Part shown: positions 12,235 through 16,993 of the stretch, one piece after another
Numbering within the stretch: position 1 is the stretch's first letter
How the letters are laid out: each line of letters starts with the position of its first letter
Assembly (NCBI GenBank): GCA_003221515.1
Contig: QHSI01000097.1
Span: forward strand, 62,001 to 126,000
Source: Candidatus Rokuibacteriota bacterium
Lineage (GTDB): Bacteria > Methylomirabilota > Methylomirabilia > Rokubacteriales > CSP1-6
Direction: 5' to 3'
DNA: 64,000 nucleotides
Position numbers and translations under genes: made by a program
Notes under the pieces: model-generated
What the model saw: the letters and a program-made list of their open reading frames with translations, nothing else
Told to the model about the DNA's origin: nothing
The model's database searches: none

Positions 12235-13052
<818 letters not shown>

Positions 13053-13056
<4 letters not shown>

Positions 13057-13970
13057 GACGGCCGTCGATCGCCGCCCTGCTGCTGGCCCTCGTGGTCTCC
13101 GCGACACTCGGCGGCGCGGTCGTCCAGGAGACCCGAGCGGCGTCCGAGTTCGACGGCGCCGCGGCGCTGCGTCACATCGAGCGTCTGGCGGCCATCGGAC
13201 CACGGCCCGCCGGGTCGCCGGCCGGGGCGCGGACGCGTCGCTACATCGTCGACGCGCTCAAGGCGGCGGCGGTCTCGATCCGGGTGGAAGCCTTCGAGGC
13301 CGACACGCCCCACGGCCGGCTCGCGATGGCCAACGTGGTGGCGGTCCTGCCCGGCCGGCGGCCGGACGTGATCTTGATCGGCGGCCACTACGACACGAAG
13401 TGGTTCCGCGAGCTCATGTTCGTGGGCGCCAACGACGGCGGCTCCAGCACGGCACTCCTGATCGAGCTGGCGCGCCGGCTGCGCGAGCGACCGCGCGAGT
13501 ACACGTACTGGATCGTCTGGTTCGACGGCGAGGAGGCGCGCGAGACGTGGACCGCGACCGACAGCCTCTACGGCTCGCGCCGGATGGCGGCCGAGCTGGC
13601 CCGGGCGCGACGGTTGCCACGCGCGGTGATCGTGGCCGACATGATCGGCGACCGCGATCTCGGCATCCGGCGCGAGGCCGCGTCGACGCGCTGGCTGACC
13701 GATACGATCTGGGCCAGCGCGGCGCGGCTCGGCCACGGCGCGCACTTTCTGGCCGACGCTCTCGCCGTCGAGGACGACCACGCGCCGTTCCTCCGGCTCG
13801 GGGTGCCGGCGACGCTGCTGATCGACTTCGACTTCCCTCCCTGGCACACTCCGGAGGACACGCTGGACAAAGTCTCGGCCCGCAGCCTCGCGGTCGTGGG
13901 CAGCGTGCTCCTCGACGCGTTGCCCGCGATCGAGGAGGGTCTCACGCGCGCGGGCGCGCCGCGCCCGTGA
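13053..13970 (+). CDS. Exported M28 family zinc peptidase / glutaminyl cyclase-like
   Basis: 305 residues from ATG 13053. A hydrophobic signal peptide (~1-29) precedes an M28 domain. Zinc-site residues are in GGHYDTKW (His, Asp), GANDGGSST (shared Asp), FDGEEA (Glu), DMIGDRD (Asp) and WHTPEDTLD (His). The DMIGDRDLGIRRE segment and WFRELMFVGAND insertion resemble secreted glutaminyl-peptide cyclotransferases (Qpct-like) more than aminopeptidases. The two activities cannot be separated from sequence alone. Acts in the periplasm or outside the cell. Confidence 0.88.
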
Positions 13971-13992: not shown

Positions 13993-14399
13993 ATGCCACG
14001 CGTGAAAGAGATCGAGGATCCCGGCAGCGATCCGACCCTGAAGGACACGTTCGCGAAGGAGACCGACACCTTCGGCTACGTCCTCAATACCACCAAAATC
14101 CAGGCGCACACGCCCGGCATCATGAAGGCCGCCAAGCAGCTCGGCGCGGCCGTCGAGCGCTCGGGTCTGCTGCCGCCGCAGCTGCTCGCGCTGGTCTATC
14201 TCCGCGTGGCGCTCATCAACGGCTGCCCCTTCTGAATCGACATCAATGCATCCCGTGGGATGCAGGCGGGGGCGTCGGAAGCCATTTCTCCGAAGCGCAG
14301 ATCGTCGAGCTGACCGCCGCCGCCGCCCTCGAGAACTTCCGCTCGAAGTTCAACGTCGCGCTCGGCATCGAGGCTCAGGGGTTCTGCATGCTCAAGTAG
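13993..14399 (+). pseudogene. AhpD-like/CMD-family gene: candidate selenoprotein, internally deleted
   Basis: The N-terminal 80 codons are intact and read like a carboxymuconolactone-decarboxylase/AhpD-family redox protein up to INGCPF (Cys78). The next codon, 14233-14235, is TGA exactly where the second Cys of the CxxC motif belongs. Reading on gives IDINASRGMQAGASEA, as expected for the family. A hairpin fitting a bacterial SECIS follows (14247-14264). After ~14282 the family's C-terminus continues only in another frame (HFSEAQIVELTAAAALENF, then FNVALGIEAQGFC, TAG 14397-14399). About 50 residues are missing in between; TCGGAAGC / TCCGAAGC flank the junction. I infer a former CxxU selenoprotein now broken by deletion. 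The alternative is a Cys-to-stop nonsense mutation plus deletion. Confidence 0.65.
14247..14264 (+). promoter_or_regulatory. SECIS-like hairpin after in-frame TGA
   Basis: TGCATCCC (14247-14254) pairs perfectly with GGGATGCA (14257-14264). The apical loop begins with G (GT, or CGTG if the last pair opens). The loop G at 14255 is 20 nt after the TGA. This fits the bacterial SECIS description: a stem-loop shortly downstream of UGA with a G early in the loop, about 16-37 nt away. Such elements recruit SelB-Sec-tRNA in known selenoprotein mRNAs. Function here is inferred. Confidence 0.5.
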
Positions 14400-14563
14400 T
14401 CCCGAAGCAGGACGGACGCGGAGCGCCAACCCCCTTGCTGCTGGACGTAGAGCAGGGGAGCATTGCGCGAGAGCATCGTGCTGGCGAACGTGTGCCGCAG
14501 TTGTTCCGGCGAGCGATGCGGGCGCCCTCGCCACGCTACGCGGACGATTGCGCAGTTAACGAG
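14375..14563 (-). pseudogene. Tyrosine recombinase (integrase) C-terminal fragment
   Basis: On the minus strand, VAWRGRPHRSPEQLRHTFAS, then YVQQQGGWRSAS and LLRDYL, ends at TGA (14377-14375). This is the catalytic C-terminus of phage-type integrases: LRHTFAS is the box II Arg region, the QQGGW motif follows and RDYL carries the likely nucleophilic Tyr. A stop codon lies just upstream in frame and the rest of the gene is absent. The fragment overlaps the end of the broken AhpD-like gene. It marks past insertion or excision of a mobile element. Confidence 0.7.
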
Positions 14564-15110
14564 TCAAGTCTTGGCCCTGAATGATGCCAGTCACTACAAA
14601 GTCGGTTTCAGCGGGTCGGCCAAACACCGTCACCACGTCACCGAGCTGCAACAGCCCTCGGATCTTAGCGCTGACCCCGCGTAGCACGAGTGTGACCGCC
14701 TTGCCATCGGCGACCCGGACCACTAGCAGGGCCCCGGCCAGCGACTCAATGCGGCCGTGGATGCGCTGGGACCGCGCCAACGGAACATCCGTCGGCTCAG
14801 ACACAGCTTCGGGCGGGTAGATCACCTGGGCGGCGATCTGATCAGAACGGGCCCCTTCGAATCCGACCAAGGTCACGGCAGCCCCTCGTTCCACCGTTGG
14901 TATGCGTGACACTGTACGGAGGTCGGCGTAGTAGACGGGCCCCTCGTCGCTCTTGACCACCGCCACGGCCGTGTCAGGGTTGAGTCTCGCCGGCTCGAGG
15001 AGCTTTCCAGAGATAACGCGGAAATCGTTTGGTGCTGCGAGAGCCTGCACCAGCAGGTACGGAGCAAACAGAGCAATGGTGAGAACGCGGAGAGCGACCA
15101 TACTTCTCAT
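14556..15110 (-). CDS. Exported hypothetical protein, OB-fold-like repeats
   Basis: 184 residues from ATG 15110, preceded by GGGGAG. A signal peptide (~1-27, ending ALAA) is followed by beta-rich sequence. Short strands such as GAAVTLVGFEG and DVVTVFGRP suggest one or two OB-like barrels, as in small periplasmic DUF5666-type proteins. No enzyme motif is seen. The coding region looks less GC-rich than the surroundings by eye and abuts the integrase fragment, so it may have been acquired. Confidence 0.6.
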   Translation of the reverse strand: MRSMVALRVLTIALFAPYLLVQALAAPNDFRVISGKLLEPARLNPDTAVAVVKSDEGPVYYADLRTVSRIPTVERGAAVTLVGFEGARSDQIAAQVIYPPEAVSEPTDVPLARSQRIHGRIESLAGALLVVRVADGKAVTLVLRGVSAKIRGLLQLGDVVTVFGRPAETDFVVTGIIQGQDLTR

Positions 15111-15219
15111 AGCGAACTCCCCGAGCCAAGCCGATAGACAGCCTATCGCTTCAGTGAGTGCGGACGTCGCGCGAGCGGACCCGGCAGCCGGTTTGCATCG
15201 CAAGGCGATGAGGGGATCG

Positions 15220-15747
15220 ATGCTAGACCAAACCAGAGGAGGCTCGCTCGTGCTCATACCCTACGCTATCGTCGCGCTGTTCGTGCTCTTACTTGCGGGG
15301 CCATCCGACGCTCAGGTGCACGTAGACATCGGGATCCACCTGCCTGCGCCTCCGCAAGTTGTGATTGTTCCTGGCGTCCCGGCGGTGCACTACGCGCCAG
15401 CCGCGCCGGCCAACTTCTTCTTGTACGGTGGCCAATATTGGGTCTTCGTCAATGGCGGTTGGCACGTGAGCCGTCACCACGACGGTCCATGGATTGTCGT
15501 TGGTCCTCAGTTCGTGCCTCGCCCACTCCTCCTCGTGCCAGTGAGGTACTATCACGTGCCTCCTGGACACTGGAAGCAGTGGAATCATCAGGCGGCGCCT
15601 CGATGGGAGCGTGAGTGGGGAGGCGAATGGGCGGACAAGAGGGGCTGGAAGGGCCGCGACGACGATGACCGCGGAGATGGTCGCGGGAGGGGCCACGGAG
15701 CGGATCGCGGCGAGGGTCGCGGGAAGGGCCACGCCAAAGGCAACTAG
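15220..15747 (+). CDS. Exported WxxGxW-like, His/Gly-rich C-terminal protein
   Basis: About 175 residues; ATG 15220 is chosen because AGGGG precedes it, while ATG 15208 would add four residues. The N-terminus is hydrophobic (signal peptide ending near SDAQ). The core reads YGGQYWVFVNGGWHVS, then GPWIVVGPQFVP and VRYYHVPPGHWKQW, typical of small exported YXWGXW/WxxGxW-repeat proteins of proteobacteria. The tail is a highly charged D/R/G/H-rich repeat that may bind metal or polymers. Divergent from the preceding exported gene. Confidence 0.65.
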   Translation: MLDQTRGGSLVLIPYAIVALFVLLLAGPSDAQVHVDIGIHLPAPPQVVIVPGVPAVHYAPAAPANFFLYGGQYWVFVNGGWHVSRHHDGPWIVVGPQFVPRPLLLVPVRYYHVPPGHWKQWNHQAAPRWEREWGGEWADKRGWKGRDDDDRGDGRGRGHGADRGEGRGKGHAKGN

Positions 15748-15841
15748 CAAAACTCGGACAGCCCCGGTCAAGTTGCTTCCCGCGCGCGAATCTGACACCA
15801 TCGAGCGCGTATGAGGCGCAAGGTTTCAGCGTGATTTCGCG

Positions 15842-16993
15842 TTGAGGCTGGCCGGGCCTCAGATCCTTCAGCTGGCGATGTTCCTCGGATCCTTCGCGTG
15901 GTCATTCGTGTTCGTGAGCCTGCCCTTCCACATCCAGCGTCTGAGCACGACCGATCCGGTGTCGACGCTGCGCTGGACGGGCTGGATCCTCGGCATCTCG
16001 TCGCTGGTCACGGTGGCCACCGCGCCGTTCTGGGGAAGGTTCGCGGCGCGTGGCGATCCCAAGACCGTCTACGTCGCGGTCGAGGCGCTCCAGGGCGTCG
16101 GCTTCTTCGGCATGGCGCTCGCGCGCACGCTTCCCGAGCTCTTCCTCGCCCGATTCGTCCTCGGCGGGATGGGCGCGGCATCGACGGTGGCCTACATCAT
16201 CGTCGGGCGCACGGGGCAGGGCAGCGAGGTGCGGCGCAGGATCGCCACCCTGCAGTCGGGCATGACGGTGGGGCAGGTGATCGGGCCCCTCATCGGCGCG
16301 ATCGCGGCGGCGCGCTTCGGCTTCCGCGCGTCGTTCGTGGTGGGCGGCGCGATCCTGCTCGCCTGCGCCGCGATGGTCCACTGGCTGGTGGAGCCGCCGC
16401 CGCAGGCGGCGGCCGCGCCGCGCCCCGACGCACGCCCGGTGCAACCGCGCGAAGTCGGGATCGTCGCGCTGATCGTGCTCGGCGCCTCGATTCAGGTGTT
16501 CTTCTTCACCTCGATCCTGCCGCGCGTCCTGCCGGATTTCGGCATCGGGTCGGCCGAGACCCTCGAGATCGGCGGGACGCTGATCTTCGTGTCGGGCGTG
16601 GCGGCCGCGCTGGGCGCCATGGCGGTGCCGCGTCTGGCCGATCTCTTCGCCGAGTCGCGGCTGATCGGCGTGCTCCTCGTGACCTCCTCGCTGTGGCTGG
16701 CCGCCTTCGCCGCCGCCGGCTCGGTCTGGCTGTACGGGACGCTCCGGTTCCTCCAGGTGCTGTCGATCGCTCCGGTGTTCCCGCTGGTCGTCGCGCGCGT
16801 CGTCCAGCACGCCGGCGGCGGCGCCATCGGGTTCATCAACTCGGCGCGAATCGCCGCCGGGTTCATCGGGCCGGTGCTGGCCACGACGCTGCTCACGTGG
16901 ACCTCGCCGGCCGCTCTCTACCTCCTGCTGGCGGCGATCGGCCTCGCGTGCGTGCCTCTCGTCCGGATGCGGGAGGCTGGAGCTCGGGCGTGA
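15842..16993 (+). CDS. MFS transporter
   Basis: 383 residues with about 12 hydrophobic segments. The loop-2/3 motif is GRFAARGDPKTVY and helix 4 has FLARFVLGGMGAASTVAYIIVGRTG, as in drug-efflux or sugar-type MFS carriers. The likely start is TTG 15842; no better Shine-Dalgarno-supported start exists. Its last codon overlaps GTG 16990 of an ABC ATPase gene, implying translational coupling between an MFS permease and an ATPase. The substrate is unknown. Confidence 0.85.
   Translation: MRLAGPQILQLAMFLGSFAWSFVFVSLPFHIQRLSTTDPVSTLRWTGWILGISSLVTVATAPFWGRFAARGDPKTVYVAVEALQGVGFFGMALARTLPELFLARFVLGGMGAASTVAYIIVGRTGQGSEVRRRIATLQSGMTVGQVIGPLIGAIAAARFGFRASFVVGGAILLACAAMVHWLVEPPPQAAAAPRPDARPVQPREVGIVALIVLGASIQVFFFTSILPRVLPDFGIGSAETLEIGGTLIFVSGVAAALGAMAVPRLADLFAESRLIGVLLVTSSLWLAAFAAAGSVWLYGTLRFLQVLSIAPVFPLVVARVVQHAGGGAIGFINSARIAAGFIGPVLATTLLTWTSPAALYLLLAAIGLACVPLVRMREAGARA

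Follow-up and report, generated by a model that had tools for sequence, protein, structure and literature searches.

A conserved UGA-containing AhpD-like selenoprotein gene of Rokubacteria and a probably broken copy beside decayed mobile DNA

The locus and its neighbourhood

The window analysed here is a stretch of 64,000 nucleotides (G000:C10:62001-126000) from a Rokubacteria MAG (Methylomirabilota) of 5.1 Mb in 191 contigs. When all genome contigs were scanned, the closest relatives with a name proved to be Candidatus Rokuibacteriota MAGs. The gene under study is read from 13993 as MPRVKEIED...LINGCPF, is followed by TGA at 14233-14235, and continues in the same frame with IDINASRGMQAGASEA. 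The features of the locus are listed below, with the evidence for each in brackets.

12235-13056, plus strand: SAM methyltransferase gene, conserved upstream neighbour (Pfam, synteny)
13053-13970, plus strand: M28 peptidase gene, conserved upstream neighbour (Pfam PF04389; synteny)
13993-14282, plus strand: 5' part of the AhpD-like selenoprotein gene, codons 1-96, ATG at 13993 (residues 1-96 are 92% identical to those of L059, an intact syntenic orthologue; profile match 1-97)
14224-14226, plus strand: TGC, Cys78 of the CxxU motif (column C78 invariant in 28 aligned relatives)
14233-14235, plus strand: TGA, predicted Sec81, second position of the CPFU motif (TGA in all orthologues covering the site; Sec machinery in the genome)
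14247-14264, plus strand: bSECIS-type hairpin, 7-bp stem UGCAUCC/GGAUGCA, loop CGUG at 14254-14257 (energy, geometry, conservation)
14282-14283, plus strand: deletion junction with frameshift, where L028 and L059 have 136 nt more (comparison with syntenic relatives)
14283-14399, plus strand: 3' part of the gene, HFSEAQIVEL...QGFCMLK and stop, out of frame with the 5' part (profile match 140-180; 91% DNA identity to L059; dN/dS against L028)
14311-14313, plus strand: premature TGA stop in the shifted frame (reading frame after the junction)
14396-14518, minus strand: tyrosine recombinase remnant, C-terminal catalytic part, directly at the selenoprotein gene's end (similarity to the G029 integrase; Pfam)
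14400-15768, no strand: 1.37-kb insertion, absent from L059, where the MFS gene directly follows the selenoprotein gene (syntenic comparison)
15842-16993, plus strand: MFS transporter gene, conserved downstream neighbour in several relatives (Pfam, synteny)

The syntenic order in relatives is methyltransferase, M28 peptidase, selenoprotein gene and MFS transporter, and in G013 the MFS gene also stands directly after the selenoprotein gene. The insertion in the window begins at the stop codon of the selenoprotein gene. It contains two uncharacterised ORFs, one at 14556-15257 on the minus strand and one on the plus strand ending at 15747.

The UGA codon in orthologues

Searches of 57 family genomes, of all genome contigs in one scan, and of 95 phylum genomes found more than 40 orthologues. 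Besides Rokubacteria, their sources are a small number of MAGs with the labels Burkholderiales, Proteobacteria, or Dehalococcoidia/Chloroflexi. Wherever an orthologous match extends over the site, it contains a single TGA, which the alignment puts at the second position of CPFU; none has Cys there. The identity of the TGA-bearing orthologues is 66-92% in Rokubacteria and 39-63% in the MAGs with the other labels, with the Chloroflexota MAGs at 39-41%. About forty members, all from related soil and groundwater bacteria, keep both the UGA and the hairpin described below. The orthologues have an intact C-terminus with the conserved end ENFRSKFN-ALGIEAQGFC. No Cys-type orthologue was found that could act as a control without a hairpin, and the sole candidate inspected, L130, yielded no usable motif with the pattern applied. 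L088, L089, and L091, from MAGs labelled Burkholderiales or Proteobacteria, are close orthologues whose SECIS is a variant of its own, and represent either horizontal transfer or mis-binned contigs.

An earlier note on this DNA, made from the letters alone, had proposed that TGA takes the place of the second Cys of an AhpD-type CxxC motif, and the TGA in the intact homologues, where TGC might have stood, bears this out. The note's alternative was a single-base nonsense change from TGC, that is, a dying Cys-type gene in which the hairpin arose by chance. The window copy is indeed broken close by, but the same TGA is present in intact orthologues, there is no Cys version, and the conservation of the hairpin goes well beyond coding needs. 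Since every orthologue covering the site has TGA and none has Cys, the nonsense mutation is excluded for practical purposes.

The SECIS-type hairpin

The sequence TGCATCCCGTGGGATGCA at 14247-14264 contains the inverted repeat TGCATCCC/GGGATGCA, which is perfect and has 8-bp arms as written. The innermost pair of this 8-bp version would leave a 2-nt loop, which is impossible, so the realistic hairpin has 7 bp. The earlier note was thus right about the presence and position of the hairpin, whereas the usable stem has 7 bp and closes a loop of 4 nt; it placed the loop G 20 nt from the TGA, where the loop begins 18 nt after the UGA and the G is its second position. The published limits for bSECIS elements are a stem of 4-16 bp, a loop of 3-9 nt with a G at loop position 1 or 2, a spacing of 16-37 nt, and an MFE of at most -7.5 kcal/mol (PMC13188914). 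The window hairpin lies within all of these, with 7 bp, CGUG, 18 nt, and -9.3 kcal/mol for the hairpin alone.

In 46 nt of context the folding energy of the hairpin is unexceptional (z = 0.26), and therefore the case for the hairpin rests on conservation and not on energy. Rfam matches to the hairpin region were all at chance level, and hairpins of single sequences are only moderately better than those of synonymous recodings. Stems of 6 bp or more stand where the hairpin should lie in 41 of the 42 distinct sequences, against 1.9 expected when the same peptides are encoded by random synonymous codons with the family's codon usage, a figure that is not a probability, as related sequences are not independent. 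For Ala in the 5' arm, GCA is used in 34 of 37 cases, compared to 3.6% of the Ala codons elsewhere in these genes, and the Ser codon is TCC in 37 of 39, compared to a background of 18%. Distant members whose stems are changed in sequence are a stronger point than the 41 of 42. Pairing is kept in the altered stems CTCCGTC/GACGGAG (L088), TTCCTTC/GAAGGAA (L089), and GCGTCG/CGACGC (L092), and likewise in L093; L054 has a shifted stem of 9 bp. Synonymous-site constraint and compensatory changes across homologues thus show the hairpin of the earlier note to be conserved.

Selenocysteine machinery of the host

The host genome contains a tRNA-Sec with anticodon TCA (69.8 bits), selA (567 bits), and selB (359 bits), all on contig C184 and no more than 5 kb apart. 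Its selD (L095, G000:C150:27763-28707; 339 bits) has an in-frame TGA in CAG-U-ASK, and the host SelD is probably a selenoprotein itself. The set of selA, selB, selC, and selD that a bacterial selenoprotein gene would need in its host, and for which the earlier note had advised a search, is thus complete. A second AhpD-like gene of the host, L008 (G000:C112:32584-33096, minus strand), has an in-frame TGA at CRYU and has distant TGA-bearing relatives among the family genomes. A further TGA-bearing CMD match is present at G000:C29:75350.

In-frame TGAs in selD and in other AhpD-like genes of the host could also be expected if UGA were read as an amino acid genome-wide, or were recoded here in another way. 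This is extremely improbable, because these TGAs lie in redox motifs of families known to use Sec, tRNA-Sec, selA, and selB are present, and most of its CMD genes have no TGA. The comparison of sequences supports the UGA of the window gene as a genuine selenocysteine codon.

Protein fold and predicted function

Intact relatives encode a protein of ~180 aa with the AhpD/CMD fold. The AlphaFold model of an intact relative, made with 28 relatives, has a pLDDT of 91.7 and a pTM of 0.86. The Pfam CMD profile PF02627 gives the intact relative 53.1 bits and the window part 36.0 bits, both above the gathering cut-off of 23. The best Foldseek matches in the PDB are PA0269 (2ijc), Atu0492, Bmp8, and D. 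radiodurans AhpD, with 2ijc at E 2.8e-7 and a TM of 0.88 by target length.

PA0269 and Atu0492 (PDB 2ijc, 2o4d, 2gmy) and the Bmp8 debrominase (6ohi) share the fold and the position of the CxxC motif with the Rokubacterial family, but have Cys where this family has Sec. PA0269 is ~29% identical to the selenoprotein family. In Mycobacterium tuberculosis AhpD, a Glu and a His beside CxxC form a proton relay. PA0269 has its Glu 12 residues before the first Cys and its His 4 residues after the second, whereas in the present family position 66 (-12) is variable, mostly Ala, Ser, or Pro, and position 85 (+4 from Sec) is an invariant Asn. As the Glu and His of PA0269 are not kept, the classical AhpD peroxidase mechanism is uncertain for this family. 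A Cys-Sec redox pair is nearly certain if Sec is inserted, while peroxide as its substrate is a guess based on the fold.

The deletion and the state of the gene

The window copy lacks codons ~97-141, and its C-terminus is thereby out of frame. The family C-terminus is found in frame 3, with its stop at 14397-14399. The earlier note had described a break in homology followed by the family C-terminus out of frame, and the comparison with syntenic relatives identifies this break as a deletion of 136 nt. A different internal deletion of ~154 nt, including the Sec motif and causing a frameshift, is present in G044 (L128). In G027 (L072, 2853-3330), 81 nt, equal to 27 codons, are lost in frame between CGCTCTTC repeats. 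These different deletions indicate that damage to the selenoprotein gene recurs. No other intact copy was found in a search of the host genome.

The window copy is probably dead as a gene. Against L028, the dN/dS is about 0.08 for the 3' part (14283-14399) and 0.15 for the 5' part. The still low value in the 3' part means that the lesion either arose very recently or is an artefact of the assembly. The gene could thus be intact in the living organism, with the 136-nt gap as a metagenome assembly error or a minor strain variant, and the purifying selection visible on both flanks of the deletion and the origin of the sequence in a 191-contig MAG are in line with this. However, the junction lies in unique sequence, where no repeat was found to explain a collapse, the same gene has other internal deletions in G044 and G027, and the insertion and the decayed integrase beside it indicate a locus in decay. 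An assembly error or strain variant is therefore rather unlikely. A real lesion is the more probable reading, and with it the earlier note's view of a probably dead gene.

Mobile elements at the 3' end of the gene

Over 41 aa, the recombinase remnant in the window shares 85% identity with an intact integrase of 399 aa at the same place in G029. Its Pfam PF00589 score of 27.0 bits is just below the cut-off of 27.1. G056 and G001 have related integrases downstream of the gene, and G002 and G027 have fragments of such integrases. A stretch of 49 nt from the gene's 3' coding end has an exact repeat in G029, 13.2 kb downstream and adjoining the MFS gene (L145, 594-642, and L154, 13057-13105). More diverged repeats of the 3' segment, 49-56 nt long and 86-95% identical, bracket inserts of 0.4, 2.8, and 4.3 kb in G014, G018, and G015, and G048 has a weaker repeat of 22 nt. 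The 3' end of the gene is duplicated in five relatives (L140, L141, L143, and L148 besides L145 of G029), with inserts of 0.4 to 13.2 kb that adjoin the MFS gene.

This arrangement of repeats and integrases is what an attachment site in the 3' end of a gene looks like. A 3' duplicate (attR) was looked for in the insertion of the window and was not found, and the att repeat had no match in plasmid records. A deletion at the attachment repeat itself was considered and rejected, as the deletion lies 5' of the repeat. It seems reasonably likely that a family of tyrosine-recombinase integrative elements in Rokubacteria regularly uses the 3' end of the selenoprotein gene for attachment, that their integration and decay repeatedly damage the gene or cause its loss, and that the broken copy in the window, where an integrase remnant lies at the stop codon, is one such scar. 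Because no att repeat is left in the window, the link between an element and the deletion is one that we infer.

Proposed explanation

The window gene very probably descends from a functional selenoprotein gene encoding an AhpD/CMD oxidoreductase, with Sec81 inserted through SelB and the hairpin, and was broken by the 136-nt deletion. In relatives, SelB with Sec-tRNA(Sec) would read the UGA as selenocysteine on meeting the downstream hairpin. The predicted product is all-helical, with Cys78-x-x-Sec81 as its redox pair. This enzyme would most likely reduce a small peroxide or a similar substrate by way of a selenenylsulfide intermediate. In the window genome, the loss of codons and the shifted frame would leave a truncated product of at most ~106 residues. 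The gene would then be a pseudogene, or may look like one through an assembly error.

The stop-like codon of this Rokubacterial gene is, as comparison confirms, most plausibly selenocysteine, and the gene defines a widely conserved Sec-only subfamily whose members standard annotation would end at the UGA. The window offers a rare view of the probable loss of a selenoprotein gene, beside mobile DNA that appears to use the 3' end of that gene.

Relation to known selenoproteins

For a representative Methylomirabilota MAG, 63 selenoprotein genes were recently predicted, which would make it the largest bacterial selenoproteome (cited in PMC13188914). AhpD-like CxxU selenoproteins are already established (PMC1088965, PMC2398784, PMC9312934, PMC13188914), and those of the COG2128 (YciW) type are part of the Sargasso Sea and GOS selenoproteomes (PMC1088965, PMC2398784). 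The earlier note had likewise treated AhpD-like selenoproteins and bSECIS elements of this geometry as known. The family of the window gene is a subfamily of these known proteins. It has in common with them the CMD/AhpD fold, the CxxU motif, and a UGA with a bSECIS close downstream, and differs as a distinct NGCPFUIDIN subfamily centred on Rokubacteria. The profile of the peroxidase-related enzyme TIGR01926 scores 47.1 bits, below its cut-off of 81.8.

The nearest NCBIfam model, NF053654, GroundWater_YciW (seleno)protein, matches the full length (1-175 of 179) with the same Sec position, but its 144.1 bits for the intact relative are below the cut-off of 310. Among the 95 phylum genomes, genes over this cut-off are found only in G001, G021, and G025, where they coexist with the window-type gene as a separate paralogous group. 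Paralogues of the NF053654 type from the same phylum (L134, L135, L137, L138) have TGA at GCEFU, and a potential GCTGCC/GGCAGC hairpin follows it in nearly the same place. The score below the cut-off and the coexisting paralogues make the Rokubacterial genes an unnamed subfamily of a known kind.
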